Origin: Pontibacter liquoris
Lineage (GTDB): Bacteria; Bacteroidota; Bacteroidia; Cytophagales; Hymenobacteraceae
NCBI RefSeq assembly: GCF_022758235.1
Contig: NZ_JALEBG010000001.1
Coordinates: forward strand, 1,798,001-1,862,000
Length of the DNA: 64,000 nucleotides
Direction of reading: 5' to 3'
Shown here: positions 1-64,000 of the stretch, piece after piece
Layout of the letters: each line of letters starts with the position of its first letter
Numbering within the stretch: the first letter of the stretch is position 1
The notes under the pieces: generated by a model
Databases searched by the model: none
Seen by the model: only the letters and a program-made list of their open reading frames with translations
What the model was told of the DNA's origin: nothing
Made by a program: the position numbers and the translations under genes

Positions 1-38
1 CTCCGGCCGAGCAAAAAGAAGAAGCTTCTGCTGAGTAA
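1..38 (+). CDS. C-terminal tail of a truncated upstream gene
   Basis: The window opens inside a gene. In the frame starting at base 3, eleven codons read PAEQKEEASAE and end in TAA at 36-38. An Ala/Glu/Lys-rich acidic tail like this is common at the C-terminus of Bacteroidota ribosomal and chaperone proteins, but the fragment is too short to name. Another frame stays open to base 57, so the assignment is tentative. A good terminator follows at 120-150. Confidence 0.4.
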   Translation, partial: PAEQKEEASAE

Positions 39-119
39 TCCTTATTCGGGTATGTAAGCCCATCTGCCTGCCGCTGTTGTTTCAGCACACGGCGGCGGCT
101 TACCAGATAAGACTTCAGG

Positions 120-150
120 GTGTGTTTGCCACGGCAGGCACACTTTTTTT
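120..150 (+). terminator. Intrinsic terminator after the truncated gene
   Basis: A stem of about 10 bp (arms at 120-130 and 133-143, two G-T pairs) has a tiny loop and is followed by seven T residues at 144-150. It ends the rightward transcript just before the stop codon of the convergent phosphoesterase gene. Confidence 0.75.
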
Positions 151-646
151 ATGCCCGTTTGCCCAGCTCTATTACCTGCAGGTCGCGCACCTGCCCGCTT
201 TCGATCGAGAACCGCACCATGGTCCGGATCTTGTGAAAGCCATGTTTGCCGGACGCACCGGGGTTTATGTGTAGCAGGCCAGGCAGCTTTTTATCGGGCA
301 TGATCTTGAGTATATGCGAGTGTCCGGTGATATATAATTGCGGCGGATTCGCCTGGATCATCTCGCGTACATCGGGGTGATACTTGCCCGGGTACCCGCC
401 AATATGCGTCATCAGTACATCAAGGTCATTGGCTTCAAACCGCAGCACTTTCGGGTACACCTGCCGGATGTCCTTGCCGTCGATGTTGCCATACACACCG
501 CGCAAAGGGGCTACTTGCTTTAACTGCTCTGCTACGTCCATACTTCCGAAATCGCCAGCATGCCAGATCTCGTCGCGGTCGGCCAGGAGCCGTAGGATCT
601 GATCGTCTACGTAGGAGTGGGTATCGGAGAGAAGGCCTATTTTCAT
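149..646 (-). CDS. YfcE/MJ0936-type metallophosphoesterase
   Basis: This 165-residue cytoplasmic protein has the full two-metal phosphoesterase signature: D8-x-H10, GD at 31-32, GNID at 53-56, H81 and GHSH at 108-111. The family hydrolyses phosphodiesters with Mn2+ or similar metals, and the natural substrate is usually unknown. Its length matches the compact YfcE family and the start ATG is directly followed by the first beta strand and metal motif. It is a single-gene unit converging on the truncated gene at the left edge. The upstream side is the long repeat-rich gap at 647-1667. Confidence 0.9.
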   Translation of the reverse strand: MKIGLLSDTHSYVDDQILRLLADRDEIWHAGDFGSMDVAEQLKQVAPLRGVYGNIDGKDIRQVYPKVLRFEANDLDVLMTHIGGYPGKYHPDVREMIQANPPQLYITGHSHILKIMPDKKLPGLLHINPGASGKHGFHKIRTMVRFSIESGQVRDLQVIELGKRA

Positions 647-1156
647 TTGATCGGTTTTATACTTGGATTTACTGGTGATGGTGAAGGGAGGTTTTCCTTC
701 CGAGTTAAAGGGTAAGCTTACTTTTTAGTTTAGAAGTTTTTTATACTTTATTCTCTGTCATCCCCTAGCTATTTTTCAGCTTAAATTATCTAGCGGTATT
801 TAGTTGTTACAGTTTGATCTTGAGTAAGATATTCCGGCTATACTATGCAGCTTTAGTTTGATGCTCAGTTTAAACTTTGGCTATACTTGGTAGCAGCATT
901 CTCTTCCGCTTTATACTTCTGGCTATACTCACTAGCTTAAGTTTAATGCTCAGTTTTATACTTACCTTGTTTCATCTCATACTTTGGAGCGCTCCAAGCC
1001 CGCGGGGGCTCGTCCTTGGGCATCGCGCTGTGGCGTGAAGCTGCTCCTCGCTTCGCTGCGGGCTGCCCTTCGGGCACCGCAACACACCAAGGCGCTCAAC
1101 CCAAGGACTGGGATCTATTCGATAGCGACTGCTTTTGCTTATGGGTACTCCAGTAG

Positions 1157-2414: not shown

Positions 2415-3095
2415 ATGAACGTTTTTATAAACGACATTCCCCTGATCCTGAAAAGAGCCACGGAAAAGGTATATAAGCACGAATACGACCTGATCCTGAA
2501 AGCATCGGACCATTTTACATCCAAAACGCTAATAGGGGATGTGCTGATAAAAGAAGCTGATCCGCTGCTCGTTGATAGGCTGGTCCGGCTGATGGAGGTG
2601 AAAAAGCTTAAAAAACTGCGCTCGCTGACGCTGGTGACCGATAAAAAGAAGAAACTCATCGCCCACCTCAAAGACCAGTTCAAGATCGTGAAAGCGGCAG
2701 GCGGACTGGTGCTTAAAGATGGAAAGATCCTGATGATCTACCGCCTGGGTGTATGGGACTTGCCCAAGGGCAAGCTAAACCGCAAGGAAGCTGTGCAGGC
2801 GGGCGCGTTGCGCGAAGTAGAGGAGGAGTGCAACATACAGGTAGAAGTAGTAGGGAAGTTGCCTAAAACCTGGCATTCGTATGCCTACAAGGGCAAAAAA
2901 ATATTAAAGAAGACCAGCTGGTATGTGATGGCCTGCACCGACGATAGCCTGATGAAGCCCCAGGCCGAGGAATTTATCGAAGAAGTACGCTGGATGACGC
3001 CTGAAGAAGCTACCAAGGTGCTACCTAAGGCTTATACTTCTATCGCTTTTATTGTGTCGCACTATCTGCAATCTCTGAAAACCGGAAAGGTATAA
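2415..3095 (+). CDS. NUDIX hydrolase with a unique N-terminal region
   Basis: The protein has 226 residues. A Lys-rich region of about 95 residues with no recognised domain precedes a NUDIX fold. The NUDIX box starts at G119, with E125, R133-E134 and E137-E138. The final Gly of the classic box is replaced (EECN instead of EExG), so substrate class cannot be predicted. Its tail overlaps the convergent coaD gene by 47 bp (3049-3095). Known NUDIX enzymes cleave nucleoside diphosphate derivatives. Here the fold is clear and the substrate is unknown. Confidence 0.85.
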   Translation: MNVFINDIPLILKRATEKVYKHEYDLILKASDHFTSKTLIGDVLIKEADPLLVDRLVRLMEVKKLKKLRSLTLVTDKKKKLIAHLKDQFKIVKAAGGLVLKDGKILMIYRLGVWDLPKGKLNRKEAVQAGALREVEEECNIQVEVVGKLPKTWHSYAYKGKKILKKTSWYVMACTDDSLMKPQAEEFIEEVRWMTPEEATKVLPKAYTSIAFIVSHYLQSLKTGKV

Positions 3096-3528
3096 AATCA
3101 TCCACGTTGCCGCCGTATTTATGAATTTCGCGGATAATGGACGAACTGATGGCGGCAAGCGGGGGAGAGGTGATCAGGAACACTGTTTCCAGGTCGTGGT
3201 TTACGTGCCGGTTGGCCTGGGCAATTGTATTTTCATATTCAAAATCGGTGGTGTTGCGCAGGCCGCGCAGCAGAAACCTGGCGCCCGCCTCGCGGGCAAA
3301 CTCAGCGGTTAAGCCTTTAAAAGTCTGCACTTTGATGTTAGACTGATCTTTAAAGATACGTTCAATCACCTCCAGCATCCTGGCTACGGGTATGTAGCGC
3401 TGTTTGCTGCTGTTATTGCCAATGGCAATGATCACCTCGTCGAAAAGTTTTGCTCCCCGCATAGCAATGTCGTAGTGGCCGTTTGTAAACGGATCGAAAG
3501 AACCAGGAAACAGGGCGATACTTTTCAT
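3049..3528 (-). CDS. coaD: Phosphopantetheine adenylyltransferase
   Basis: This 159-residue enzyme catalyses the penultimate step of coenzyme A synthesis (4'-phosphopantetheine plus ATP to dephospho-CoA). The nucleotidyltransferase motif PGSFDPFTNGH lies at residues 8-18, and the second motif ISSSIIRE is near residue 127. Length is typical. The last 47 bases lie on the opposite strand of the NUDIX gene end, a tail-to-tail overlap. A 178-base gap separates it from the DUF3822 gene upstream on the same strand. In many Bacteroidota an rsmD gene sits between the two, and it is absent here. Confidence 0.96.
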   Translation of the reverse strand: MKSIALFPGSFDPFTNGHYDIAMRGAKLFDEVIIAIGNNSSKQRYIPVARMLEVIERIFKDQSNIKVQTFKGLTAEFAREAGARFLLRGLRNTTDFEYENTIAQANRHVNHDLETVFLITSPPLAAISSSIIREIHKYGGNVDDFIPFRFSEIADSATQ

Positions 3529-3706
3529 AGTTTAATTGTTAAATGGCTCGATTGTTAAATTGTTATTATGTACGGGATTGTTCTTACATTCTTGTTTGCC
3601 GCTTATACGTGCGTGTATGATGGAAGGCATGCATCATACTTAAAAGTATATTAGCCATTAAACAAGTTAACCACACAGCTACTACCAATTAACAGCTAGC
3701 AATAAA

Positions 3707-4594
3707 CTAGTCGCAGAGGTTCAGGCTGTAAAGCTCGAAGTAGCGGTGTTCAAACAGATCGTGGAATTTGTAGCTATACTCTACGTCGGCGGGCTTTTTG
3801 CCTAATTTAATGTGCTGGATGTATTTTTTGAGAATGTGAAACAGTGCCGAGTCGTGCGTAATATCGCCCCAGATGGTGATCGTTTCCTGCTCGGGGCTCA
3901 GCTTTTGCTCCTGCATCACAAAAATGATGTAGTAAATAAAATCCTCCGGGCTTAGGTAATGGAAGATATTGCAGAATTCCAGCCCGGCCGGTCCAACCAT
4001 CAGGATCGTTACAAAATCCCGCTCCACAAACGCATACATGCTGCGCTGCGCCGGGCGCTCGGCATAGTGCAGTACACTCCTGATCAGCACACTGGTCTGG
4101 TGCACAAAATGCACCGGCTGCTCCGGAAAGATATCCTGCAGGGCTTGGTACGTTGCCGCATCCACCGAAAAGATATTGATAGCTTCCAGCCCCGGGTGCC
4201 GGTAGGTGCAAACAACTTCCTGTTGCAAATTCAGGTTACTGTGCAGGCGCAGGTAATCGGCCTGGTGGGCAGGGTCGTAGAGGGTTTCGGGCACCAGCGT
4301 AAAGTGCTGGTTGCTGACCGATACGCGTAGTTCCTGCCAGTTTTTGGTTTGCATCAAGGGGTTTTCGGCCGCAATAAGCCGCAGCTGTTCAGCTACCTGC
4401 ATGGGCACCAGGTTACTCAGGAGCTCGTAATCTTCCAGCAGCACAAATTTATTCCGGGCGGTATCTACTACAGCAAAACGGATGGATTTCCTGCTCAGCG
4501 ACAAGTATAACTTGCAGGTGGGTGCCTGCTGGAAGTTAAACGCCTCGTCCTGAATTTTATGCGAAAGCCTGAAATAAGTGCTGGTCGTGTTCAA
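3707..4594 (-). CDS. DUF3822 family protein
   Basis: This 295-residue protein matches from memory the DUF3822 family, which in Bacteroidota lies beside coaD. The N-terminus (YLSLSRKSIRFAVVD) and the middle part with HQTSVLIRS and YAFVERDFVTILMVG resemble an actin-like/ASKHA-type fold. No signal peptide or membrane segment is seen. Function is unknown. Neighbour conservation suggests a housekeeping role. A TATACTT-type element (AAGTATA at 4645) lies upstream in the intergenic space to the next gene. Confidence 0.75.
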   Translation of the reverse strand: MNTTSTYFRLSHKIQDEAFNFQQAPTCKLYLSLSRKSIRFAVVDTARNKFVLLEDYELLSNLVPMQVAEQLRLIAAENPLMQTKNWQELRVSVSNQHFTLVPETLYDPAHQADYLRLHSNLNLQQEVVCTYRHPGLEAINIFSVDAATYQALQDIFPEQPVHFVHQTSVLIRSVLHYAERPAQRSMYAFVERDFVTILMVGPAGLEFCNIFHYLSPEDFIYYIIFVMQEQKLSPEQETITIWGDITHDSALFHILKKYIQHIKLGKKPADVEYSYKFHDLFEHRYFELYSLNLCD

Positions 4595-4682
4595 CGTAGT
4601 ACCGGGTTAAGCGCAGCACCTAACGAAGCGCTGCTTTACTGCAAGTATAAAAAAATTATGGCAAATGGCCGCATAGCGCTGC

Positions 4683-5168
4683 TTATCTCATAAAGTGGTG
4701 GGGCAGTCCCATAAGATCATCGAGGGAGAACAGGTGCTGCAGCGCCCGGTGCTTATCGGCGGTGGGGATGGCCTGCAGTTCTTTGATGGTGAGCCATTGT
4801 ACCTGTTTGATCAGCTGCTGGTTGGGAGCTGCTTCCGGGTCGGTGCCGGTAGTTGCCTGGCCGTTGCTGCAGCTTACTTCAAAAAAGAACTCGACCGCAT
4901 GCAGCGGCGGCTGCACAAACTCATTTACAAACAGGAAGCGGCCCACCTTTACCTCCAAGCCGGTTTCTTCCTGCATTTCGCGGGCCAGCGCCTGTTGCAT
5001 GGTTTCGCCAAAGGCTACACCGCCGCCGGGGGGGGCCCAGAAAGCATTGTTGTTCAGGGTATGGTCGTGCTGCACCAGCAGAAGTTTATTTTCCTGCAGG
5101 CAAACACCGCATACGCGCACGCGCACTTTGCCGGCGTAGGCGGCTGCATTGGGGTTCAGGTCGGTCAT
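4683..5168 (-). CDS. NUDIX hydrolase
   Basis: A 161-residue NUDIX enzyme with the box GGGVAFGETMQQALAREM continuing to QEETG, all catalytic Glu residues present. I chose the start at 5168 (MTDLNPNAA). A longer open frame runs to 5294 but would overlap the divergent thioesterase gene, whose start at 5208 is well supported, and its extra residues do not look like a domain. Related small NUDIX proteins remove damaged or surplus nucleotides or sugar nucleotides. The true substrate is unknown. Confidence 0.85.
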   Translation of the reverse strand: MTDLNPNAAAYAGKVRVRVCGVCLQENKLLLVQHDHTLNNNAFWAPPGGGVAFGETMQQALAREMQEETGLEVKVGRFLFVNEFVQPPLHAVEFFFEVSCSNGQATTGTDPEAAPNQQLIKQVQWLTIKELQAIPTADKHRALQHLFSLDDLMGLPHHFMR

Positions 5169-5207
5169 TTCTTTTGCGGATAAACGGAAGCGTCGTAGTT
5201 TTACAGT

Positions 5208-5663
5208 ATGATAAAAACGTACAATCCCGAATTTGAACAGGATATACGCGAAAAGCTCCAGCGGCAGGGATTTATGAAGCTCCTGGGCTTTCACGTTACA
5301 AAGATAGCAGCTGGAAGCATAGAAGGCGAATTAACCTTGGAGCCGCACCACCGGCAGCACAAAGGCTTTGCGCATGGCGGCCTGATCGCAACGCTGGCCG
5401 ATATTGTGGCCGGCTTTGCCGCGGTAAGCCTGGTGCCCAAAGACCATCACGTGGTAACGGCAGAGATAAAAGTGTCCTATTTTCATCCGGGCGTGGGCGA
5501 CAAATTACTGGTAAAAGGCTATGTGATTAAACAGGGGCGCAAGCTTAATTTCTGCGAAGCCGAAGTATACGATGTGCGGGGCGCAGCGGAGCCTTTGCTC
5601 ATTGCCAAAGCATCGGCCACCATGGCCACCATAACCCCGGAAGAGATCGCGCGTAGAGTATAA
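5208..5663 (+). CDS. PaaI-type hotdog thioesterase
   Basis: This 151-residue hotdog-fold protein has the HGG motif (FAHGG, 54-58) and an Asp at 65 in the following helix, as in PaaI/YdiI acyl-CoA thioesterases. These enzymes release CoA from aryl- or acyl-CoA and usually act as tetramers in the cytoplasm. It starts 39 bases from the divergent NUDIX gene, so the two share a compact promoter region. The substrate cannot be told from sequence. Confidence 0.85.
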   Translation: MIKTYNPEFEQDIREKLQRQGFMKLLGFHVTKIAAGSIEGELTLEPHHRQHKGFAHGGLIATLADIVAGFAAVSLVPKDHHVVTAEIKVSYFHPGVGDKLLVKGYVIKQGRKLNFCEAEVYDVRGAAEPLLIAKASATMATITPEEIARRV

Positions 5664-6189: not shown

Positions 6190-7596
6190 ATGCGCCCATT
6201 AGAAGCCCTCCGCGAGAATTTCCCGTTTGAACCCACCGGAGACCAGGCCATGCTCTTTACCAAACTCGATGCCTTTATACAGGCCAGGCAGGACGAACGG
6301 CAGGTGTTCCTGCTCAAAGGCTATGCCGGTACAGGTAAAACCACGGTGGTAACGGCGCTGGTCAAGATCCTCAACTCCTTCGGTTATAAATATGTACTGC
6401 TGGCACCCACTGGTCGTGCCGCCAAGGTAATGTCCAGCTACAGCGGCAGCCCGGCCTTCACGATCCATAAAAAAATTTATCGCCAGACAGCAAACCCATA
6501 CTCCGAAGGCCTGTCGTTTACGCGCCAGCCCAACAAAGCAGATAATACCTTTTACATTGTGGATGAGGCATCCATGATCTCGGACGACAGTGGCTTCGGA
6601 CAGAACGGCCTGCTGCAGGACCTGCTCAGCTACGTGTTCGATAAAAAGAACAACAAACTGTTGCTGATAGGTGATACAGCGCAGCTGCCGCCGGTAGGTC
6701 AGGCCTTAAGCCCCTCGCTGGAGGCCGAATACCTGCGGCATAACTTCCGATGCCAGGTGCACGAAATTGAGCTCAGGCAGGTAATGCGCCAGGCCGAAAG
6801 CTCCGGCATCCTGATGAACGCCACCAACTTGCGCAACCAGCTGGGGCAGGAGCCGCTCGATATCAAACTGGCCACTAAAGGCTGGCGCGATATTTACCAG
6901 ATGACGGGCGAGAAGCTGGAAGACGGCCTGCGCTATGCCTATGATAAGTTCGGCATTGAAAGCACGACCGTTATCTGCCGCTCCAACAAGTCGGCTAACA
7001 TGTATAATCAGCACATCCGACGCCGCATCTTCTTTGCTGAAGATGAGCTGGGCGTGAGCGATTACCTGATGATTGTGCGCAACAATTATTTCTGGCTGCC
7101 CAAAGATTCGGATATCGGTTTTATGGCTAACGGCGACTTTGTGGAGGTAACCAAGATCATCCGTCACGAGGACATGTATGGCTTCCGGTTTGCCGATGTG
7201 CGCATCCGGTTTGTCGATTACCCTAATGCGCCGGAAGAGGAAGTGAAGATCATGCTCGACACGCTTTACTCCGATGCCCCGGCGCTGCCCGCCGACCAGA
7301 ATAAGAAACTGTATGAAGCCGTACTGCAAGATTACCAGGACATCACAACAAAGCGTGAACGGAGCAAGGAACTGAAAAAGAACCCTTACCTGAATGCGCT
7401 GCAAGTAAAATTTGCCTACGCCCTGACCTGCCACAAAGCGCAGGGTGGGCAGTGGAAGGCAGTATTCGTGGATCAGGGATTTCTGAAGGACGACATGCTG
7501 AACGAGGAATTCGCCCGCTGGCTGTATACGGCCTTAACACGTTCATCAGAAGAGCTTTACTTGCTGAACTTTAATCAACAATTATTGGTTAGCTGA
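6190..7596 (+). CDS. RecD/Pif1-like superfamily 1B helicase
   Basis: A 468-residue ATP-dependent DNA helicase of the RecD2/Pif1 type. Visible motifs: Walker A GYAGTGKTT (44-52), an APTGRAA motif Ia (72-78), Walker B IVDEASM (123-129), motif III GDTAQLPPVG (161-170), a late CHKAQGGQW motif V, and YTALTRS motif VI near the end. There is no N-terminal RecBC-binding domain, so it is probably a stand-alone helicase acting in repair or replication. It is transcribed alone. The nearest downstream gene begins 81 bases later and has its own terminator. Confidence 0.9.
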   Translation: MRPLEALRENFPFEPTGDQAMLFTKLDAFIQARQDERQVFLLKGYAGTGKTTVVTALVKILNSFGYKYVLLAPTGRAAKVMSSYSGSPAFTIHKKIYRQTANPYSEGLSFTRQPNKADNTFYIVDEASMISDDSGFGQNGLLQDLLSYVFDKKNNKLLLIGDTAQLPPVGQALSPSLEAEYLRHNFRCQVHEIELRQVMRQAESSGILMNATNLRNQLGQEPLDIKLATKGWRDIYQMTGEKLEDGLRYAYDKFGIESTTVICRSNKSANMYNQHIRRRIFFAEDELGVSDYLMIVRNNYFWLPKDSDIGFMANGDFVEVTKIIRHEDMYGFRFADVRIRFVDYPNAPEEEVKIMLDTLYSDAPALPADQNKKLYEAVLQDYQDITTKRERSKELKKNPYLNALQVKFAYALTCHKAQGGQWKAVFVDQGFLKDDMLNEEFARWLYTALTRSSEELYLLNFNQQLLVS

Positions 7597-7677
7597 CAAA
7601 TGAATGACTACCTTGTATCGTTTTTAACGTAATTGAAGTATAATAGCGACAGCAATCATTTTAACCCTTTCAATCAG

Positions 7678-8127
7678 ATGAAAAAAGTAATCCTTTCCAT
7701 GGTTTTCGCCGCGCTGGTTGCCGGCGGTGCCAGTGCCCAGACGCAGCCTAAAACGCAGGCTACTGCCCCACAGGAGCAGGCGAAAAACGGCCCGGCTATT
7801 ACGTTTGAAGAAACAGAGCACAACTTCGGCAACATCACCCAAGGCGATGTGGTGGAGTACACGTTCAAGTTTAAGAACACAGGCACCCAGCCACTGGTAA
7901 TTGACCGTGTGGACGTAACCTGCGGCTGCACCACGCCAAACTGGACGAAAGAGCCGGTAGCACCAGGTAAAACCGGTATTGTGAACGCTAAGTTTAACAG
8001 CGCCGGTAAACTGGGCCAGCAGAAGAAAGCGATTACCATACACTCTAACGCCGCCGCCGGCGACGCTTACGTGTACATCGTAACAGACGTAAAAGAGAAA
8101 ACTGCTGCCAGCGCCCAAAAGCAATAA
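7678..8127 (+). CDS. Secreted DUF1573 protein
   Basis: I chose the ATG at 7678 because MKKVILSMVFAALVAGGASA is a clean signal peptide; the frame is open further upstream to 7633. The 149-residue product then has one DUF1573 domain, an Ig-like/ASPM-SPD-2-Hydin-type fold with the motif TCGCTTP followed by WTK. These periplasmic or surface proteins are abundant in Bacteroidota and their function is unknown. A second locus with the same motif, but two domains, is at 61140-61928. A strong terminator follows. Confidence 0.88.
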   Translation: MKKVILSMVFAALVAGGASAQTQPKTQATAPQEQAKNGPAITFEETEHNFGNITQGDVVEYTFKFKNTGTQPLVIDRVDVTCGCTTPNWTKEPVAPGKTGIVNAKFNSAGKLGQQKKAITIHSNAAAGDAYVYIVTDVKEKTAASAQKQ

Positions 8128-8147
8128 CAGCAAGTTTAAAGTATAGG

Positions 8148-8178
8148 AAAGGCCCTTCTGAACGGAGGGCCTTTTTTT
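8148..8178 (+). terminator. Intrinsic terminator after the DUF1573 gene
   Basis: Arms AAAGGCCCT (8148-8156) and AGGGCCTTT (8166-8174) enclose a 9-base loop and run into a T tract ending at 8178. Confidence 0.9.
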
Positions 8179-8286
8179 GTGCGCTCGGCTTATCATTATA
8201 AATAGCGTCAGCCCAATTTTTTTTATTACGGATTTACTATATTCGTTCAGTAAAGCCCAGTTAAATAGAAGCTTACATACAGCGCT

Positions 8287-25582: not shown

Positions 25583-25892
25583 AGTAGTTCTGAGTTCTGA
25601 ATCCTGATTTATTGGTAGGGTTGTTATACTTGCTGCGTATTTTACAGGCCCGGTTTGCTGAAGTATAAATCAGGGGGGCGTCCTGTTCTTACCAAGGATG
25701 ATAGTATCGACATTCAACTATACGCCGTTATATCCCAGCCAAGTATATCCATTTTGGTGAGCAAAGTATAAAGGCAGCTGTAGCAAAGAGGTGGACTTTG
25801 CGTGTTCAAGCTTTCTGGCTTTCGGGAAATAACTATTAATTTGCAGCCTGCTGCAGAGCAATCTTATTTAGTAGTATAAATTAAACTGGCTT
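25583..25892. other. Intergenic region with AAGTATA copies
   Basis: No gene is supported. Four copies of the AAGTATA/TATACTT word lie in 310 bases (near 25626, 25662, 25741 and 25764). The tatD-type gene promoter must be here but no exact box was found. Confidence 0.5.
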
Positions 25893-27791: not shown

Positions 27792-27801
27792 CACCACAAA
27801 C

Positions 27802-27889
27802 AGAGAGTTGTCCGAGTGGTTGAAGGAGCACGCCTGGAAAGTGTGTATACCTCAAAAGGGTATCGAGGGTTCGAATCCCTCACTCTCTG
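27802..27889 (+). tRNA. tRNA-Ser (anticodon GGA)
   Basis: An 88-base class II tRNA. The acceptor arms AGAGAGT (27802-27808) and ACTCTCT (27882-27888) pair perfectly and the discriminator is G27889. The anticodon stem CACGC/GTGTG holds the loop CTGGAAA, giving anticodon GGA, which reads UCC and UCU. A long variable arm and the TTCGAAT T-loop are present. CCA is not encoded. A terminator follows. Confidence 0.93.
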
Positions 27890-27911
27890 CCGGTAGTAAT
27901 ACTAGATTGTT

Positions 27912-27950
27912 AAAAGCCTGCAAATCATATCTTTGCAGGCTTTTTGTTTT
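27912..27950 (+). terminator. Intrinsic terminator after tRNA-Ser
   Basis: Arms AAAAGCCTGCAAA and TTTGCAGGCTTTT form a 13-bp perfect stem with a short loop, followed by T-rich sequence to 27950. Confidence 0.9.
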
Positions 27951-28500
27951 CATATCCTGTCAGGCTTTATCACCATCTCTTTCCTTGTAGTACTTGTATA
28001 TCCGGCAAAAACCACTCGGAATTTTGCGGGCAGCTCTGAAATTCTCAGGTGGAAAGCAAAGGCTACGATGCACATGCTTTGCCCCACACCTGCTGGGTCA
28101 TTCACGATCTGCCAGATCCAGTCGGTGCCGGGCCATAGGAGCAGCACGACCACCAAAAGCTTTTCCCACATCAATAGCCAGGCTTTGAACGTATCGTGAG
28201 TTTGCTTGATGCTTTATAAGAATTTCATATATTAGCTTAAGAATATGCTATGTAAGCTGGTGCGACGGGAAGCTGGAAGAATTATGCCGAACGGAATCGT
28301 ATTGCAACTTCAAAACGGCAAAACTCAAAAGCTTAAAACAATCGTTTTCAGAAGAAAAAGCTTTATCAGTTACAGTTAAGCCAAACAGCACAATAAGTTG
28401 AGTTTAAGCAAAACGTTTGATTCCATCACAGCACAAGCAGTATGTTCGGCTAAGCCTCACTTATTGCCTGTACAAACCGTTTACATTCATAGTAAACCCA
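27951..28500. other. Junction zone between tRNA-Ser and the AT-rich islet
   Basis: The first part (27951-28200) is GC-balanced. On the minus strand, 27950-28219 stays open for about 85 codons, reading through WPGTDWIWQIVNDP without an ATG near its beginning, which might be a decayed gene remnant. From about 28200 base composition drops to AT-rich. No confident gene, RNA or repeat is seen, and no second copy of the tRNA 3' end was found. Confidence 0.4.
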
Positions 28501-29235
28501 ATGCAATACAAAGAAACAAAACCTTGTAATGCGTTAGAACCCTTTATTCATTCCTATTGGGAATTGAAAGGGGACGAACATGACAGACAATGGGAGCGAA
28601 ATTTCCCTGATGGATGTGCAGGCTTGGTGATGAATTTGGCAGATACCTGTCTGACGGATAATGGCAGGGTTTCTATGGCATTTGGAAAAACGTATGTAGT
28701 GGGGGCAACGACTTCTTTTAAAGATAGTTTTATCGATAGCAATACACATTTAGTAGGCGTTTGCCTTAAACCAGCAGCTTTTGCAAATTTCTATACCTAT
28801 GCAGCACAAAATGAGCTGACCGAGCTCACGGTTGAGTTTGAGAAGGCCAACTCATTTAAGATTGACAATATTATGAAAGACTCTGCTGCTTATTTAAATC
28901 AATTTTTTACAGACAGAATCAAAACTACAATCAACCCGCTACAATCCATCATCAAGGATATACATGCTTCTCATGGACAATTGCGTATTAAAGAACTTTC
29001 AAAACAGTATAACACCACAGTAAGGCAATTAGAACGAAGTTTTAAAAAGCATGTAGGAATTTCACCCAAAGAATATGCAAACATTATTCGCTTTCAACAT
29101 ACTTTAGGTATTATAAAGAACTCAGGTGAAAACCGGAGCTTGTTAGATATTGCTTATGAGTGTGGCTATTACGACCATGCGCATCTTACCAACGAAATTA
29201 AACGGAATACGGGACTTTCCCCTTCGCAACTTTAA
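28501..29235 (+). CDS. AraC-family transcriptional regulator
   Basis: A 244-residue regulator. The N-terminal sensor part starts MQYKETKPCNALEPFIHSYW, as in DUF6597-type AraC proteins, and the C-terminal double helix-turn-helix includes LRIKELSKQYNTTVRQLERS and SLLDIAYECGYYDHAHLTNE. I chose the ATG at 28501 because the domain begins there; the frame is open from 28417. The gene is clearly more AT-rich than most of the window. It probably controls itself or the following two genes, which lie on the same strand. Confidence 0.9.
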   Translation: MQYKETKPCNALEPFIHSYWELKGDEHDRQWERNFPDGCAGLVMNLADTCLTDNGRVSMAFGKTYVVGATTSFKDSFIDSNTHLVGVCLKPAAFANFYTYAAQNELTELTVEFEKANSFKIDNIMKDSAAYLNQFFTDRIKTTINPLQSIIKDIHASHGQLRIKELSKQYNTTVRQLERSFKKHVGISPKEYANIIRFQHTLGIIKNSGENRSLLDIAYECGYYDHAHLTNEIKRNTGLSPSQL

Positions 29236-29306
29236 TTTGTCGTTTTTTTCCAAAGTAGCCATGCCGGCTCTACCTTAACATTGCAGAAACTGTAAACGAA
29301 AGACAA

Positions 29307-29840: not shown

Positions 29841-30042
29841 ACAGCGAAGCACCAACAAAGAGCATAAAATAGAGAGTGTGCAGTGGTTTTCACTATTTTG
29901 CTGGTCTTATAGCATTAATCATGTTAAACACGTAAACAGCGCCGATATGCTCTCTGTTTTATTCCCTAATTTAGCCTATCTTTTATAGCGACACTTTCAC
30001 ACAGGTATTTAAGATAATAAACAACTTTCATAACCACGCAAT

Positions 30043-30480: not shown

Positions 30481-30642
30481 GCAAATTCCTACTAGCGCCT
30501 GCTCCCCGTTTTGCAACAGGCGGGTTGCTGTGACTGGTATGTGCTATAATGCTGCAGTTGCGACCTTTCGCCAAGCCGCTTGCCTTTAGCGATAAACCGA
30601 AAATACGAAATAGTTTCCCCTTAAATGATCGCAGGAACCTGC

Positions 30643-33519: not shown

Positions 33520-33520
33520 T

Positions 33521-42514: not shown

Positions 42515-43192
42515 ATGAAAAAACCCGAAGTGATCAAAGTTATACTTGCCGAAGACCATATGATTCTACGACAGGGCCTGCGGCTGCTGTTGGAACAAGA
42601 CCCCGAAATTGAAGTAATAGGAGAAGCCGGAAATGGCGAAGAATTGCTGGACCTGCTTGCACAAACGCCGGCTGACGTGGTGCTGATGGATATCCATATG
42701 CCTGTGATGGATGGCTTTGAAGCAACCGAGCAGGTATGCGAGCGCTATCCGCAAACCAAGGTCATTGCCCTTTCGATGCTGGATAATGTGCCTTATGTGC
42801 AGAAAATGCTGGCTTGTGGCGCAACAGGTTACCTGCTCAAGACTACGGGGCGCGAAGAACTGAGCGCGGCCATTAAGCTGGTGGCCAGCGGAAACAGCTA
42901 TATCTGCAGTGAGCTTTCCATTAAAGTGCTCACCAAAGAAGCCAATCTGAAAGAAGTTAGGCCGCAGGAGAGCGGCGAGAAAGCCGGCCTTTCCAGGCGC
43001 GAGATAGAAGTGCTCACGCTGATTGCCGAAGGTTTTACAAACGCTGAGATTGCCGATAAGCTGTTTACCAGTAAACGCACCATCGAAACGCACCGCCAGA
43101 ACATTTTGGAGAAAACGCAGGCAAAAAATTCGGCTAACCTCATCAAGTATGCGATCGAGCATAAGATCATCGCCATGGATGACCCGGGCTAA
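42515..43192 (+). CDS. NarL/FixJ-type response regulator
   Basis: A 225-residue two-component regulator. The receiver domain has acidic pocket AEDH near residue 12, the phosphorylated Asp in VVLMDIHMP (about residue 55), and the Lys in LLKTTG. The LuxR helix-turn-helix is LSRREIEVLTLIAEGFTNAE followed by TSKRTIETHRQN (about 155-195). I chose the ATG at 42515 (MKKPEVIKV). No histidine kinase is nearby, so it is an orphan in this window. Genes around it are small signalling-like or unknown proteins. Confidence 0.94.
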   Translation: MKKPEVIKVILAEDHMILRQGLRLLLEQDPEIEVIGEAGNGEELLDLLAQTPADVVLMDIHMPVMDGFEATEQVCERYPQTKVIALSMLDNVPYVQKMLACGATGYLLKTTGREELSAAIKLVASGNSYICSELSIKVLTKEANLKEVRPQESGEKAGLSRREIEVLTLIAEGFTNAEIADKLFTSKRTIETHRQNILEKTQAKNSANLIKYAIEHKIIAMDDPG

Positions 43193-50202: not shown

Positions 50203-51693
50203 ATGGAAGAACTCAAAGCTCTTGCCGGTTTAGTAACATATCGGCTTAGTAATAAAACAACTTTAATCTCTGAGATTGAACAACAAACCAGAGAAAGCGA
50301 TTTTATAAAAAAAATCTCTACAGGTTTATTTACTAATGATGCTGAGGCTTCATACGGGTTATATAATTCAAACCCAAATGATGCGAGATATAAGATGCTT
50401 AAGTATAGGTTAAAGCATAAGCTTTATAATAATTTGTTTTTCTTAGATTATGAAAAGCTTAAACTTAAGTTGATTTATCAGAAAGAGCTGGAGTGTTTGC
50501 AATTACTTCACCATGCTAATCTCTTATTTAGAAAGAATGAATACACTATTGCTATCTCCTTAGCAAATAAAATTCTAAAGATCTCCGAGCGCTATGACCT
50601 GCTTAATGTAACAATTTCAGCTTTAGAAATTCTACTGAAATGTTACTTCGACGAAGGCAACATCAAATTATATCAGAATATCGATAAGAAACTGATTCAA
50701 CTGATTCAAATTAAAAATTATGAAGCACAGGCACTTTCCTTATTTGGCTTAATCCGGCTTCAACTTAAAAAGACTATCAAGATCAGAAAGGAATTAATCG
50801 AAAAATTACCTCCTTCACTTCAAAGGCTTGATCAACTTTGGAGTTTGGCAAAGACCTTCGAAGCTTTTAATTCCTATTACAAAGCACACATGATTTATTT
50901 CGAGATGGTTGGTGATTTTAATGGCATTGTAGATCTTACTATTTTATCAGAGCAGTGGCTTCAGCAAAAGAAGATTAATGCCTTACGATTTGATGCCAAT
51001 TACAATAAGTTTATTTTAGTATATGCACATTTAAGAGCAAAGCGATATAATGATGGGCTGGCTTATGCGCAGCAATTCTTACCGGTTTTCCAGGCGAATT
51101 CTACTAACTGGTTTGCCTTTCACGAGAATTATTTCCTATTAGCTGTGCATTCAAAGAATATAGAACTGGCAGAAGCTATTATCCTCAAGATAGCAAATAA
51201 CACGGCTTTTGAAAAGATCAGCAGTACTTCTAAAGAACGTTGGAAATTATATAAGACATATTTCTATACCCTTTTCCCGAGTACTTATTATGAAAGTAGT
51301 GGTATAGGAAACAATAATCCTTATTTACTTTCTCTACCTGAGTACAGCAAAGACAAGCAAGGTTTCAATGTTGCCATCCTTATACTTCAATTCATTTATT
51401 TTTTAAAGAAAAACGATTCAGAAGCGCTGCTTTATAGAATTGAAAGTCTCAAAAAATATATTCTTACACATTTAAAAGATACTTTTAGCCAGCGAAGTAA
51501 AATATTTTTAAAGCTTCTAATCCTAACTGTTGTTGAAGATTTTGATGCGGAGGCTTGTAGTAAAAAAGGGCAAAAGTTGTATCAAAAGCTTATTGAAACG
51601 CCAACTCCAGGCGATGCCTATGCTGAAATCGAAATTGTGCCCTATGAACATCTTTGGGAACTAATTCTATCGATTTTAATAAATAAAAATTAG
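50203..51693 (+). CDS. Helical-repeat protein of unknown function, paralog 1
   Basis: A 496-residue AT-rich gene product without signal peptide. Residues 1-60 form an acidic-basic N-terminal module, followed by YKMLKYRLKHKLYNNLFFLD (about 67-86), then a long helical solenoid. Late conserved blocks are NWFAFHENY, a hydrophobic ILILQFIYFL stretch and EIVPYEHLWELIL near the end. The same blocks occur in the next gene, so the two are paralogs from a tandem duplication. The protein at 30643 has a similar layout. No known domain can be named. Confidence 0.75.
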   Translation: MEELKALAGLVTYRLSNKTTLISEIEQQTRESDFIKKISTGLFTNDAEASYGLYNSNPNDARYKMLKYRLKHKLYNNLFFLDYEKLKLKLIYQKELECLQLLHHANLLFRKNEYTIAISLANKILKISERYDLLNVTISALEILLKCYFDEGNIKLYQNIDKKLIQLIQIKNYEAQALSLFGLIRLQLKKTIKIRKELIEKLPPSLQRLDQLWSLAKTFEAFNSYYKAHMIYFEMVGDFNGIVDLTILSEQWLQQKKINALRFDANYNKFILVYAHLRAKRYNDGLAYAQQFLPVFQANSTNWFAFHENYFLLAVHSKNIELAEAIILKIANNTAFEKISSTSKERWKLYKTYFYTLFPSTYYESSGIGNNNPYLLSLPEYSKDKQGFNVAILILQFIYFLKKNDSEALLYRIESLKKYILTHLKDTFSQRSKIFLKLLILTVVEDFDAEACSKKGQKLYQKLIETPTPGDAYAEIEIVPYEHLWELILSILINKN

Positions 51694-54778: not shown

Positions 54779-56428
54779 TTACTTTTTATAGACCAGCTTG
54801 CCGTTTACATAGGTGCGCAGCACCTGCGTTTCGCGCATTTGTTCAGGCGCAACCTCCATCAGGTCACTGTCAACAAGTATAAAGTCGGCAACTTTCCCTT
54901 TTTCTATACTTCCCTTTTCCTTTTCCTCAAAGTTAGATTTGGCTGCCCAGATCGTCATGCCTCGTAAGGTCTGCTCGCGTGTGAGGGCATTTTCCATCTG
55001 AAAACCACCGGAAGGGTAATTTTTGGCATCCTGCCGGGCTACAGCTGAATGGAAAGTATAAAAAGGATTTATACTTTCTACCGGAAAGTCGGTGCCCAGA
55101 GCTAGGTAGCCATTTTGCTTTAGCAACTCCTCATACGGATAGGCATGCTTGAGGCGTTCGCTTCCCAATCTTTCGCCGGCCCAGTACATGTCGGAGGTGG
55201 CATGTGTGGGCTGTACCGATGGCACGATGTTATACTTACCGAATTTAGCCATATCCGCAGGGTCTACGATCTGGGCATGTTCAATGCGCCAGCGCCTGTC
55301 GTTCTTGCCTCCTAATACTTCCCCATAAATGTCGAGCAGCAGACGGTTAGCCGAGTCGCCAATAGCATGCGTATTCATCTGAAATCCGTGCGCATACATT
55401 TGTTTGGCTACTTCCCGGAATTCCTTTTCTGAAGAAAGCAGAAACCCATAATGGCCTGCACGATCCGCGTAGGGCTTCAGCAGGTTTGCTCCTCTGGAGC
55501 CGAGTGCGCCATCGGCATAGATCTTGAACGAGGTTACATGCAGCCTGTCGGTTTTCAGCGGGCCTTTCGCAAAGAAGTGGTCTTTATTTTCCTGAGTTGG
55601 GTTTAACATGGCGTATACGCGCATTTGCAGCTCTCCCTTTTGCTGCATGGCGTCCAGCAGCTCCACGGTGGCTTTGTCCAGCCCGGCATCATCCACCGTG
55701 GTAAGGCCGACGGCAAAGCAGTTTTTCTCCGCTGTCAGAAGTGCTGCGCGTTGTTCAGCTTCCGTGGGCTCCGGTACCTTAGCCCATACCAGGTCTACGG
55801 CATTGTCTACTAAAATGCCGGTCATGCGGCCATCTTTCACTTCCACAATGCCTCCAACCATCTTGGTTTGGGGCGTAATACCGGCAAGATCAAGCGCTTT
55901 CTGGTTTACCAGGGCAGCATGACCATCCACACGGGTAAGTATAACCGGTGTGTCGGGGAAGAGCAGGTCGAGGGTATCTTTAGAAGGAAATTCCTGTACG
56001 GCCCAATCGTTCTGGTCCCAGCCGCGGCCGGTGAGCCAAGGGGTGGTAGGATATTTCTTTCGCTGAGCCACAACCTGCTGCACTACTTCTTTAAAGGAGC
56101 CTGTGCCATCCAGGTCTGCCGATTGCAGCCCCAGCCCATACCTGTAGAAGTGCGTGTGCGCATCAATCAGGCCCGGGTATATGGTTTTGCCACCTGCATC
56201 CAGCTCTTCCGCTGGTTTATACTTCTTACGCAATTCGGCCGTGGTGCCTACCTCTAGTATTTTGCCATCTTTTACGGCAAAAGCTTCAGCCTTATCGAAT
56301 GCCTCATTTACCGTATACACCTTGCCGTTGTATACCAGCAGGTCAGCAGGTTGGGTGCTGGTGCAGCCGCTAACAAAGCTGCCGCTCAAGAGGAGGGCGG
56401 CAGCATAGCGTTTAAATGTTTTTTTCAT
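54779..56428 (-). CDS. YtcJ-like amidohydrolase lipoprotein
   Basis: A 549-residue metal-dependent hydrolase. The signal peptide ends in a lipobox (FVSGC, Cys 22). The amidohydrolase core shows GKTIYPGLIDAHTHF with the HxH metal pair, MNTHAIGDSANR, and LGTDFPVESINPF. The family includes N-substituted formamide deformylases and other amidases; the substrate is unknown. It follows the AMP nucleosidase gene by nine bases and is probably co-transcribed. Several AAGTATA copies lie inside. Confidence 0.9.
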   Translation of the reverse strand: MKKTFKRYAAALLLSGSFVSGCTSTQPADLLVYNGKVYTVNEAFDKAEAFAVKDGKILEVGTTAELRKKYKPAEELDAGGKTIYPGLIDAHTHFYRYGLGLQSADLDGTGSFKEVVQQVVAQRKKYPTTPWLTGRGWDQNDWAVQEFPSKDTLDLLFPDTPVILTRVDGHAALVNQKALDLAGITPQTKMVGGIVEVKDGRMTGILVDNAVDLVWAKVPEPTEAEQRAALLTAEKNCFAVGLTTVDDAGLDKATVELLDAMQQKGELQMRVYAMLNPTQENKDHFFAKGPLKTDRLHVTSFKIYADGALGSRGANLLKPYADRAGHYGFLLSSEKEFREVAKQMYAHGFQMNTHAIGDSANRLLLDIYGEVLGGKNDRRWRIEHAQIVDPADMAKFGKYNIVPSVQPTHATSDMYWAGERLGSERLKHAYPYEELLKQNGYLALGTDFPVESINPFYTFHSAVARQDAKNYPSGGFQMENALTREQTLRGMTIWAAKSNFEEKEKGSIEKGKVADFILVDSDLMEVAPEQMRETQVLRTYVNGKLVYKK

Positions 56429-59802: not shown

Positions 59803-60915
59803 TTACAGCACGTTTTCTACAGGCGTGTAAGGCAGGTTAAATGCTTCGGCTACCCCTTTATACACTACTTTTCCGTTCACCACGTTCAGCCCTTTTCTGA
59901 GCTCCTCGTTTTCAGCACAGGCTTTCTTCCAGCCTTTGTTGGCCAGTTGGATGGCGTACGGCATGGTGGCATTGTTCAGGGCCAGCGTAGAAGTATAAGG
60001 AACCGCTCCGGGCATGTTGGCTACGCAGTAATGCACCACATCATCAATAATAAAGGTTGGGTTCTCATGGGTAGTAGGCTTGCATGTTTCAATACAACCG
60101 CCCTGGTCTACGGCCACGTCCACAAGCACGGTGCCCGGACGCATTTCCTTCAGCATATCGCGTGTGATCAGGTGTGGGGCTTTTGCACCCGGGATCAGCA
60201 CCGCTCCAATAATAAGATCATGAGTTGGCAGCAACTCACGGATGTTATATTCATTCGACATAAACGTGTTAACGTTGGCCGGCATAATATCATCCAGATA
60301 GCGCAGACGCGCCAGGTTTGTGTCCATAATGGTTACATCCGCACCCATACCTGCAGCAATTTTAGCAGCATTGGTACCTACCACACCACCACCAAGTATA
60401 AGTACTTTAGCAGGACGAACGCCGGGAACCCCACCTAAAAGTATACCACGGCCTTTCAGTGGTTTCTCCAGGTATTTAGCACCTTCCTGTATCGACATAC
60501 GGCCGGCAACTTCCGACATCGGAACCAGCAGGGGCAGGCTTCTATCCGCTTTTTCAACTGTTTCGTAAGCCAGACAAACAGCGTTCCGCTCGATCATAGC
60601 GTTGGTGAGCGGCTCATAAGAAGCAAAGTGGAAGTAGGTGAACAACAGTTGGTTGTCCTTGATCAGATTATACTCAGACGCGATCGGCTCTTTAACCTTG
60701 ATGATCATATCGGCGATGGCGTATACTTCTTCGATGCTTGGAAGAATCGTAGCTCCCGCCTTTACATAATCTTCGTCGGCAAAGCCGCTGCCTTCACCGG
60801 CAGACGTCTGTACATACACGGTATGTCCGTTACGAACCAACTCAATTACCCCGGAAGGCGTTGTGCCTACGCGGTTTTCGTTATTTTTGATCTCCTTTGG
60901 AACACCAATTATCAT
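59803..60915 (-). CDS. ald: Alanine dehydrogenase
   Basis: A 370-residue NAD-dependent enzyme that interconverts alanine with pyruvate and ammonia. Marks are [19 protein letters not shown], the catalytic His region [27 protein letters not shown] for NAD binding, and [12 protein letters not shown] with the catalytic Asp. I chose the ATG at 60915 because it matches the family start; the frame is open to 61032. A minus-strand TAnnTTTG box lies at 60947-60954. A strong terminator follows at 59746-59782. Confidence 0.96.
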
Positions 60916-61139: not shown

Positions 61140-61928
61140 CTATCTGAAAGGAATGGGCTGTTTACCCTCCTTTACCATATTTTCAGAAACCAGGCTCTCT
61201 ACTACCGTTGCTTTAAGCGTTAGTCTGAGTGCTGGCATCACGATATCATTCGAAATTATCGTTACAACTTCGTTCTGTTCTGATAACATTGCGGGCACAT
61301 ACGTAAGTTCCAAAGTAGCTGTCTGTCCGGGTTTTATCGCCGGGTCCGACACTTTGTAGCTCACGCAATTGCAAGCCGAACGTACGCCCTGTATCTGCAG
61401 GTCCTGCCGACCCGTGTTCTTTATCTGGAATTTAGCCACAGCTTTTTGTCCTTTTTCAAGTTTCCCAAAGCTGTAAGTGGTTCTTCCAACTGCCAAACGC
61501 GGTGACAATGTTTTTTGTTCCTGCGTGTGAATAGTTTTCAGATCAGCCGGTCCAACTTCGCCTTTTATGTACAAAACATGCGTTGGCGATACACCGTTAG
61601 AAGTAACAGTAATGGATTTATTGAACGGGCCCGGCCGGCCTGTGCTATTATAAATGGCTCTGATGAAACCGATTTTACCAGGCAGAATAGGTGTTTTTGT
61701 CCATTCCGGCGTGGTGCACCCACAGGAGGGCTGAACATTTGTGATCACAACGGGTTGATTCCCTTTGTTGCGTACCCTGAAATTAAAAACAGCCTTTGTG
61801 CCCTCGGCAATTGTACCAAAGTCATGCGTGTCAAATTCATACTCCAGCTCGCCTTGTGCCTGCGCATTAAACCAAAATAGCATGCAACTAAGCAGCGTCA
61901 AGAAGTAAAGCTTTTGTTTCATAAACAA
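61140..61928 (-). CDS. Secreted protein with two DUF1573 domains
   Basis: A 262-residue exported protein (signal [20 protein letters not shown]; an alternative ATG lies two codons in). The first domain has [14 protein letters not shown] and the block [12 protein letters not shown], almost the same as in the protein at 7678. The second has [16 protein letters not shown] and ACNCVSYK, in which the CGCT motif has become CNCV. Both are Ig-like beta folds. The role is unknown, probably extracytoplasmic structural or binding. A minus-strand TATCTTTG (61980-61987) lies about 50 bases upstream. Confidence 0.85.
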
Positions 61929-62052
61929 GAAAAAGCAAAAAAATATGTTTTTGGATTATCAGTCAAGCGCAGACCGCCTCAAAGATAAAGATTCTTTTTA
62001 CAAAATGATACACGCCAACCACTGGCGAAGGGGAGCACGGCAGGCTGCCGGA

Positions 62053-62083
62053 TTTGAATTTCAGGGATAGTTCTGTACTTTTG
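62053..62083 (+). promoter_or_regulatory. Canonical promoter of the E1 dehydrogenase gene
   Basis: TTTG at 62053-62056 and TACTTTTG at 62076-62083 are separated by 19 bases, an exact match to the Bacteroidota consensus TTTG-N19-21-TAnnTTTG. The start codon lies 36 bases after the -7 box. Confidence 0.75.
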
Positions 62084-62119
62084 ATCGTAAAATACACTTA
62101 TTGATTATACTGAGAAGAC

Positions 62120-64000
62120 ATGCAAACTGCTGAAGCATCTATCACTCATAAACTAACAACCGAGGAGATCCTGAACGATTACCGCATTGGGTGGGAGAGC
62201 CGTCATGCCAGCCTGGCAGGCCGTAAGGAGGTCTTTATGGGCAAAGCAAAATTCGGCATCTTCGGCGATGGCAAGGAAGTAGCGCAGCTGGCAATGGCCC
62301 GTTTCTTTCTTCCCGGCGATTTTCGGTCCGGCTATTACCGCGACCAGACCTTCATGTTTGCCATCGGTGAGCTTACCTTGCAGCAATATTTTGCACAATT
62401 ATATGCCCATACAAATGTAGAAGCAGATCCTTCTACTGCAGGCCGGGCCATGAACGGCCATTTTGGAACCCGTTTGCTCGACGACGAAGGCAACTGGAAA
62501 GATCTGACCAAGCAGCGTAATTCCAGTGCGGACGTATCGCCTACGGCAGCCCAGATGCCGCGTTTGGTTGGCTTGGCATATGCTTCCAAACTTTACCGCC
62601 AGAACCCCGCTCTGCAGCAGCTGCATACATTTTCGGTTAACGGAAATGAGGTGGCTTTTGGCACGATTGGCAATGCTTCTACTTCGGAGGGGATGTTTTT
62701 TGAAGCCATAAATGCTGCTGGAGTGCTGCAGATACCCATGCTGGTTTCTGTCTGGGATGATAACTATGGTATTTCGGTTCCGGCCGAGTACCAGACCACC
62801 AAAGGTAGCATTTCCGAGATTCTGGCCGGTTTCCAGCGTAACGCTGAAGGGGAGCAGGGCTATGAGATATTTAAAGTGAAGGGCTGGGATTATGCTGCCC
62901 TCTGCGAAACCTACGAAGCTGCCGTGCGCGTGTGCCGCGAGCAACATGTGCCGGTGCTGGTACATGTAGAGGAAATGACGCAGCCACAGGGCCATTCTAC
63001 TTCCGGCTCGCATGAGCGCTATAAATCAAAAGAGCGACTGGAGTGGGAAGCAGACTTTGATTGCCTGAAAAAAATGCGGGAGTGGCTGCTCGATAATGAA
63101 CTGGCTACCGCCGGGCAACTGGACCAGATAGAGGCGGAAGCGAAAGAAACGGTCCGTCTTGCGCGAGGCGCTGCCTGGAGTGAATTCTCCAGTGGCATCA
63201 AAGCGGACCACGAGGAAGCCCTGCGCCTGTTAGACAACCTGGCTGAAGCAAGTGAGCACATCACCAAACTGGCTTCGATTTCAGATGAGCTGCGCAAAAC
63301 AGCCAGCCCCATCCGTAGCGACGCTGTTCGGGCCGTGCGCAAAGCCCTGCGTTATGTTCGCGATGAACGGAATACGGCCAAACGTGAGCTGATTGGCTGG
63401 CTGGAACAAACGTTTGGTGAAAATGCCGATCGGTTTAATTCCTACCTGTATAGCCAGTCCGAGCAATCTGCCTTGCTGGTGGAAGAAGTGAAACCCGAAT
63501 TTGATGAAAACTCTCCGGTGGTGGATGGCCGCGAAGTACTACAGGCTTGTTTTGATGCCATGCTGGCGCGCGACCCCCGCGTGTTTGCCATTGGCGAGGA
63601 TGTCGGAAAAATAGGGGATGTGAACCAGGCCTTTGCTGGCCTGCAAGATAAGTATGGTGAACTGCGGGTAACGGATACCGGCATCCGCGAGTGCACTATT
63701 ATCGGACAGGGCATCGGAGCTGCTTTGCGTGGCCTGCGCCCCATCACCGAGATCCAGTACCTCGACTACCTATTATATGCCATCCAGATACTTTCCGATG
63801 ACCTGGCTAGTTTGCAATATCGCACTAAGGGCGGCCAGAAAGCCCCGCTGATTGTACGCACCCGCGGTCATCGCCTGGAAGGTATCTGGCATTCTGGTTC
63901 GCCCATTGGCATGATCCTGAATGCAATAAGAGGCATGCACGTGCTCGTGCCGCGTGATATGACACAGGCCGCAGGATTCTATAATACGTTGCTGAAAGCA
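62120..64000 (+). CDS. Fused alpha/beta 2-oxoacid dehydrogenase E1 (truncated by the window end)
   Basis: The frame opens at ATG 62120 and stays open for 627 codons to the edge. The E1-alpha part covers about residues 1-450 (EILNDYRIGWESRHASLAG, FGIFGDGKEVAQLAMARFF, YYRDQTFMFAIGEL). The E1-beta part starts near residue 468 (VVDGREVLQACFDAMLARDP, IGEDVGKIGDVNQAF, TDTGIRECTIIGQGIGAA). It uses thiamine diphosphate to decarboxylate a 2-oxoacid, probably branched-chain keto acids. The thiamine motif reads GNASTSEG and later WDDNYGIS in place of GDG and NN. It has a clean promoter upstream. Confidence 0.92.
   Translation, partial: MQTAEASITHKLTTEEILNDYRIGWESRHASLAGRKEVFMGKAKFGIFGDGKEVAQLAMARFFLPGDFRSGYYRDQTFMFAIGELTLQQYFAQLYAHTNVEADPSTAGRAMNGHFGTRLLDDEGNWKDLTKQRNSSADVSPTAAQMPRLVGLAYASKLYRQNPALQQLHTFSVNGNEVAFGTIGNASTSEGMFFEAINAAGVLQIPMLVSVWDDNYGISVPAEYQTTKGSISEILAGFQRNAEGEQGYEIFKVKGWDYAALCETYEAAVRVCREQHVPVLVHVEEMTQPQGHSTSGSHERYKSKERLEWEADFDCLKKMREWLLDNELATAGQLDQIEAEAKETVRLARGAAWSEFSSGIKADHEEALRLLDNLAEASEHITKLASISDELRKTASPIRSDAVRAVRKALRYVRDERNTAKRELIGWLEQTFGENADRFNSYLYSQSEQSALLVEEVKPEFDENSPVVDGREVLQACFDAMLARDPRVFAIGEDVGKIGDVNQAFAGLQDKYGELRVTDTGIRECTIIGQGIGAALRGLRPITEIQYLDYLLYAIQILSDDLASLQYRTKGGQKAPLIVRTRGHRLEGIWHSGSPIGMILNAIRGMHVLVPRDMTQAAGFYNTLLKA

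Follow-up and report, generated by a model that had tools for sequence, protein, structure and literature searches.

A genome-wide word with three spellings in Pontibacter resembles a DNA-uptake sequence

Why should one heptamer recur about a hundred times, on both strands and inside as well as between genes, in a single stretch of bacterial chromosome? The question is raised by 64,000 nucleotides of Pontibacter liquoris (Bacteroidota, Hymenobacteraceae; assembly GCF_022758235.1, contig NZ_JALEBG010000001.1, positions 1,798,001 to 1,862,000), hereafter the window, in which a sequence-only reading by a model had counted about 100 copies of AAGTATA. That count holds: there are 102 copies (52 forward, 50 reverse) against a mean of 6.9 and a maximum of 16 in 100 dinucleotide shuffles, and AAGTATA is the top 7-mer of the window under an order-2 Markov model (11.8 expected, 8.6-fold). 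The next base is A in 63 of the 102, the majority that had been claimed, and under the same model AAGTATAA is the top 8-mer (63 against 3.3). T is scarce at the second base after the heptamer (11 of 102), and the flanks, over 20 bases on each side, are otherwise near flat and hold no second conserved element. AAGTATG, which had been placed near chance, is in fact enriched some three- to four-fold (32 against 10.7 in the window, 211 against 53.7 in 364 kb of the same genome). The comparisons that follow lead us to regard the word as probably a self-recognition word of the DNA-uptake-sequence (DUS) kind.

Counted across the whole P. liquoris genome (4,917,612 bases, four contigs), as the sequence-only reading had suggested, the enrichment is confirmed and proves symmetric between strands: AAGTATAA occurs 4,036 times, 2,023 forward and 2,013 reverse, against 126 occurrences (51 and 75) of a control, the same word read backwards. 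Over the 364 kb, the ratio of observed to expected counts (O/E) falls from 22.1 for exact AAGTATAA to 2.2, 1.09 and 0.98 at one, two and three mismatches. With genes taken from a codon-score script, 603 copies of the word in 404 kb (18 segments) divide into 317 inside genes, 278 between genes and eight on gene edges, which gives densities of 1.05 per kb in coding and 2.70 per kb in intergenic DNA, a 2.6-fold difference. The in-gene copies lie in both orientations (164 sense, 153 antisense) and occupy all six frames, and they are eight times as many as in 60 synonymous-codon shuffles (mean 38.0, standard deviation 5.9, maximum 52). Protein sequence, codon use and promoters therefore do not explain the word, and the earlier statement that it lies on both strands and in different frames, beyond the reach of codon bias, is upheld.

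The word changes spelling within the genus. We counted exact words in whole genomes of 50 Pontibacter species, one genome each; the spellings themselves were discovered in 16 stretches of 20 kb from genus members low in AAGTATAA, and the cut-offs for a strong word were set after the counts were known. AAGTATAA is high in 23 genomes (2,125 to 7,030 copies) and AGGTATAG in 12 (2,823 to 5,222), and AACTATAG is the main word, without strong AAGTATAA, in four (6,292 to 8,208), or reaches 6,288 to 8,208 in five if G018, itself among the 23, is counted. Four genomes carry both AAGTATAA and AACTATAG: G018 (2,125 and 6,288), G033 (3,911 and 2,617), G058 (4,476 and 2,002) and G043 (6,128 and 907). The remaining 11 (G002, G013, G028, G075, G095, G109, G113, G115, G125, G127 and G131) have no strong word, with the reservation that 20-kb samples could miss a rarer word in them. 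The gap below strong AGGTATAG is wide (2,823, then 833 in G058 and 751 in G115), as is that below strong AAGTATAA (2,125, then 1,201 in G131); AACTATAG counts are graded across the mixed genomes. Most of the difference is carried by the three bases before TATA, which are AAG, AGG or AAC, and spellings differ between congeners of similar G+C.

Among loci from named organisms, AAGTATAA marks those of P. anaerobius, P. oryzae, P. sp. 172403-2 and the uncultured isolate 4-1420, and AGGTATAG those of P. roseus, P. amylolyticus, P. lucknowensis, P. ramchanderi, P. aquaedesilientis and P. virosus, among others; 22-kb loci of P. ummariensis, P. qinzhouensis and P. beigongshangensis contain no such word. 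Two word-poor genomes show weak words of other kinds, which are perhaps relaxed or fading spellings: NGGTATA in G115 (loci L095, L200 and L201; about 4.4-fold for C, A or G as first base) and TATATA-type words in G002 (L083 and L189 to L191; three- to six-fold). A residual two- to three-fold excess in word-poor genomes is not taken as meaningful, since another genus of the family (g3) also shows ratios of 2 or more. One AAGTATAA genome, G073, holds at least 39 copies of AGGTATAG on one strand at 64- to 69-base spacing (G073:C1:1944098-1946633), which looks like an array, of tandem or CRISPR-like type, that includes the other spelling.

Spellings follow phylogeny. In a tree built from the ComEC of 48 genomes, all but G046 and G087, the 11 AGGTATAG genomes form one clade (support 96/99), and the four AACTATAG genomes form another with the mixed G018, G033 and G058 (100/100). 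The mixed G043 is the first to branch among the other 41, across the root branch from the AACTATAG clade; AAGTATAA genomes are spread over the remainder, and word-poor genomes fall in several places. An independent tree of an HHH_3 protein of about 770 aa (30 genomes) recovers the same two groupings (99/99 with nine genomes, 99/96 with five). Judged by its spread, without an outgroup, AAGTATAA is likely the ancestral spelling.

Part of the sites seem to have been re-spelled where they stood. We aligned codons of comEC from 47 genomes (without G046, G087 and G119) and of the glycoside hydrolase gene at 37011-39743 of the window from 18 loci. AAGTATA sites meet AGGTATA sites of the other group in 76 of 1,672 cases in comEC against 2.5 under frame-kept shifts, and in 51 of 410 against 0.7 in the hydrolase gene. 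At the 61 AAGTATA columns of the two genes, AGGTATAG genomes have AGGTATA in 50 of 641 cells and the next one-base neighbour in five; at the comEC columns, AACTATAG genomes have AACTATA in 11 of 117 and the next neighbour in two; word-poor genomes have AAGTATA in eight and AGGTATA in five of 492. These cells count genomes, not events, and most AAGTATA columns have no word in the other group. It follows from the coincidences that some sites are inherited ones whose spelling changed. The density of a genome's own word in comEC is 3.98, 4.30 and 5.31 per kb in the three spelling groups, and word-poor genomes have 0.42 AAGTATA per kb. At about 4 words per kb, the comEC loci of word-bearing genomes (L136 to L185) approach four times the average for coding DNA in the P. 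liquoris genome, a richness that may not be special to comEC, since the hydrolase gene is also word-rich (2.97 per kb).

Beyond the genus the word fades out. Among 150 Hymenobacteraceae genomes from six genera, including the 50 above, AAGTATAA is high only in Pontibacter. A count of ARSTATAR across the order (291 genomes, 115 genera) puts four of six Pontibacter genomes at 5.7 to 16 times control, and no genome outside the genus goes above about 2.4 (G185). In 80 loci from named Bacteroidota, a 7-mer with z of at least 12 was found in 13 Pontibacter loci and one from Hymenobacter (L017); next below came L050 (z 11, a G+C-rich repeat) and the Pontibacter locus L006 (z 10, AAGTATA).

The sequence-only reading had likened the pattern to uptake words or to recombination and segregation signals. 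The first likeness is favoured by the genome-wide excess, the decay with mismatch load, the dialects that follow phylogeny, the conversion in place and, as described below, an island that lacks the word; the second is unlikely. As an uptake word, it would act as follows. Competent Pontibacter cells would bind word-carrying DNA better than other DNA, and after recombination this bias would slowly spread copies of the word, and of sequences close to it, across the genome. With a change of receptor the spelling would shift, from AAGTATAA to AGGTATAG or AACTATAG, after which resident sites would be converted one base at a time. The candidate reader would sit in the outer membrane or on the cell surface and would be no relative of type IV pilins; it may be of the pilus-free kind that genetics has revealed in Riemerella. 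Uptake as the driving force, the direction of the spelling changes and the separation of the reader from pilins are what we infer. A more specific proposal, which we consider evenly poised, is an uptake system without type IV pili in which a new surface receptor reads NNNTATA-type words, its specificity having shifted at least twice in the genus (the bases before TATA going from AAG to AGG in one case and from AAG to AAC in another), so that two-word genomes would be caught in mid-switch.

The closest parallel to the dialects is in the Neisseriaceae. As described in the part of the report on their DUS dialects (Frye et al. 2013, PMC3630211), a short word is present there too in thousands of copies, its spellings follow phylogeny and lie a few bases apart around a shared core (CTG there, TATA in Pontibacter), one genome holds two dialects and some relatives have none. 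Pontibacter differs in belonging to the Bacteroidota rather than the Proteobacteria, in a word of 7 to 8 bases that is A+T-rich, in having no convincing type IV pilus ATPase, so that no pilin reader of the ComP type is expected, and in close pairs that are mostly direct. The uptake signal sequences (USS) of the Pasteurellaceae, in the portions of the reports dealing with them (PMC1626085, PMC12616744, PMC1939737), likewise show over-representation that falls with mismatch load, a profile given for both Haemophilus and Neisseria words (PMC1939737), and subtypes in relatives; the word itself is different, that of H. influenzae is longer, and the proposed reader is a type IV minor pilin. Our word appears to act like an uptake word, but we do not file it in the DUS or USS family, because the pilus machine of both was looked for and not found.

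For machinery the nearest parallel is Riemerella, of the same phylum, where pilus-free transformation needs ComEC, DprA and an HHH-domain protein, all with counterparts in Pontibacter (PMC8459023, PMC7965970). According to the sections of these reports on transformation, no pili came to light, R. columbina favours its own DNA, and a model legend draws the HHH protein with three HHH domains (PMC8459023). The top k-mers shown there are A-rich, and in that part of the work no uptake word is established; the domains of the Riemerella surface protein, DUF5689 and DUF5017, have no dialect-matched pattern in Pontibacter.

A look for competence genes, which had been proposed from the window, found matches to ComEC (PF03772), DprA (PF02481) and HHH_3 in each of the 50 genomes. 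The 317-aa HHH protein of P. liquoris has three HHH_3 stretches after a putative membrane-anchor start and is predicted to be ComEA-like, resembling the periplasmic protein that Riemerella is reported to need (PMC8459023). There is no convincing type IV pilus ATPase in the 50 genomes: matches to PF00437, the family of pilus and type II secretion ATPases, reach only 19 to 26 bits over about 40 to 65 residues, exceeding the cut-off of 24.9 in three genomes by at most 1 bit, against 13 of 14 control genomes that pass; pilins were not searched. Pilin receptors of the Neisseria (ComP) and Pasteurellaceae kind are therefore unlikely readers. In one AAGTATAA genome, G087 (L236 to L238 and L184), the ComEC, DprA and three-HHH genes are all broken among long open frames, seemingly a competence set lost in nature, and its ratio of word to control, 12.9 (2,537/196), is the lowest of the 23; G018, mainly a AACTATAG genome (2,125/133), and G073 (2,246/102) come next. 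From this single lineage it would seem that the three genes act jointly and that the word declines once they are gone.

Acquired DNA offers a second view. Across 172 overlapping ten-kb intervals (5-kb step) of word-bearing loci, G087 left out, only the three intervals of one locus, L089, hold three or fewer of their own words. L089 is a mobilizable island with genes for a relaxase, a YhcG nuclease, ThiF and JAB proteins, a P-type ATPase and an efflux pump. It has no AGGTATAG, against 16.7 predicted from the density of its genome, and one AGGTATA in 20 kb, with 0 or 1 per interval against 0.9 to 1.4 by composition, so that the word is not clearly avoided. A count at the level of composition fits recent arrival under an uptake or a methylation model alike. 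A 5.9-kb contig that appears by eye to be rRNA (L255) has no words.

Several observations weigh against the word being an uptake word. G087 does not show the larger share of one-mismatch sites that decay of the word would leave (1.23, against 0.86 to 1.76 in nine other AAGTATAA samples), and, at 11.5, its Markov O/E lies above that of the uncultured isolate 4-1420 (11.0) among the ten samples compared. G046, with ComEC and DprA broken, still has 5,041 words, and G119, with ComEC split, has the most AACTATAG words of all (8,208). Conversely, the 11 word-poor genomes keep ComEC and DprA without reported inner stops, together with HHH_3 matches, so having competence genes is not enough to predict the word. 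A ten-kb stretch of L122 that looks like prophage by eye has six AAGTATA against 2.0 by composition and no AAGTATAA against 0.6, and so is not clearly depleted. Close pairs of the word in the 404 kb are mostly direct (65 of 93; 28 inverted). In Neisseria terminators, close pairs of uptake words are inverted, and a role in hairpin terminators was rejected for Pontibacter on these counts.

The leads to a receptor also failed. DUF5689 (PF18942), taken from the Riemerella screen, is found in 22 of the 50 genomes in a pattern unrelated to spelling: 12 of the matches are in proteins of 413 to 450 aa, with SusD- or SusC-like neighbours by eye at the six loci viewed, and 10 in proteins of 1,099 to 1,299 aa, of which the four viewed look like secreted nucleases. 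DUF5017 (PF16409) is in seven of 50 and shows no pattern. Inspection by eye revealed no obvious outer-membrane partner beside comEC in four genomes or beside the HHH gene in two.

The main rival, and the one we take most seriously, is a methylation word like the cyanobacterial HIP1: a DNA methyltransferase would recognise the word, methylation-dependent repair or conversion would make and keep its sites, and the spelling would follow the methyltransferase. It has a precedent, since the part of the work on alternative HIPs reports a genome-wide word replaced in relatives by others with matching methyltransferases (Elhai 2015, PMC4390886). HIPs are palindromic, G+C-rich and tied to a methyltransferase, whereas AAGTATA, AGGTATA and AACTATA are A+T-rich, none of them is palindromic, and the flanks are nearly flat. 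In the L089 island the word is neither enriched nor clearly avoided. We consider this rival unlikely for Pontibacter. At least one other genome word is nevertheless present in the family, and its shape suits this explanation better. Palindromic ACCTAGGT is extreme in G080 (L270; 3,262 sites, control 16), and G137 has 492 sites (L271; control 0); three genomes of genus g4 have 242, 138 and 106 (controls 7, 7 and 2), and the other 145 have far fewer. Loci in which it was noticed include L261 (G004) and L017, from Hymenobacter cavernae.

Less probable again is a word for recombination or chromosome organisation, such as Chi, KOPS or a nucleoid-protein site, bound by a cytoplasmic protein. The spread of words over the sampled chromosome, with one word-poor locus among the 172 intervals, would suit it. 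Chi and KOPS are strand-skewed. The Pontibacter word has no overall skew, either in the window or over 16 segments of the genome (263 forward, 269 reverse; origin and terminus not located), which makes a segregation or Chi-type signal unlikely, and 11 congeners have no strong word.

A transcription signal, be it a sigma-factor -7 box, a terminator or a regulator site, is very improbable and largely refuted. The higher intergenic density speaks for it, as does the resemblance of TATACTTG to the -7 box, raised from the window as a link to be excluded. As a main cause that link is excluded: more than half of the copies (317 of 603) lie in genes, in both orientations and all frames and at eight times the codon-shuffle null, and the 20 bases to each side hold no further conserved element. 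Mutational or codon bias, or an artefact of assembly or composition, has the A+T-richness of the word as its only point and is next to impossible, being refuted by the shuffles, the Markov model, the reversed-word control, the codon shuffles and the different spellings in congeners of similar G+C.

Within the window, the 102 copies, 63 of them AAGTATAA, extend from 658 to 60728. All eight positions given as examples are among them: 25741-25747 (one of four copies in 25625-25770), 4503-4509, 50401-50407, 54875-54881 and 60394-60400 on the forward strand, and 658-664, 33421-33427 and 42541-42547 on the reverse. The glycoside hydrolase gene (Pfam Bac_rhamnosid6H / MGH1-like; 37011-39743, forward) holds eight words between 37040 and 39159. 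The three long gaps that had been pointed out are also there, at 25.8-30.4 kb, 33.4-36.7 kb (spanning leuC-leuD-leuB, to use the gene names of that reading) and 60.7-64 kb. In the first, 27901-30200 lies beside a tRNA-Ser gene (27802-27891) and carries open reading frames that by eye encode an AraC-type regulator and a reductase-like protein; it has no words against 3.4 at genome density and 0.5 by its own composition, G+C is 0.395 over 27800-30500, and it is probably acquired DNA. Other over-represented words of the window, such as AGATCAT/ATGATCT (30 against 7.0) and the CAGCAC type, rank far below AAGTATA.

All uptake words of demonstrated function that we know of come from two proteobacterial families, in which the reader is a pilin or is thought to be one. 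No report of such a word in Bacteroidota appears among the titles and abstracts of the matches listed in the open-access literature, which is not proof of absence. If the Pontibacter word is indeed an uptake word, a preference for self DNA would have arisen independently, through a different machine, and its reader would have to be a new kind of surface protein, with Riemerella as the nearest model. One genus would then display a change of spelling, genomes in mid-switch and loss, and word-poor members that keep the competence genes would either be competent but indiscriminate or have lost just the reader. The word would also offer a genomic route to the reader in a competence system that works without pili, a question shared with Riemerella.

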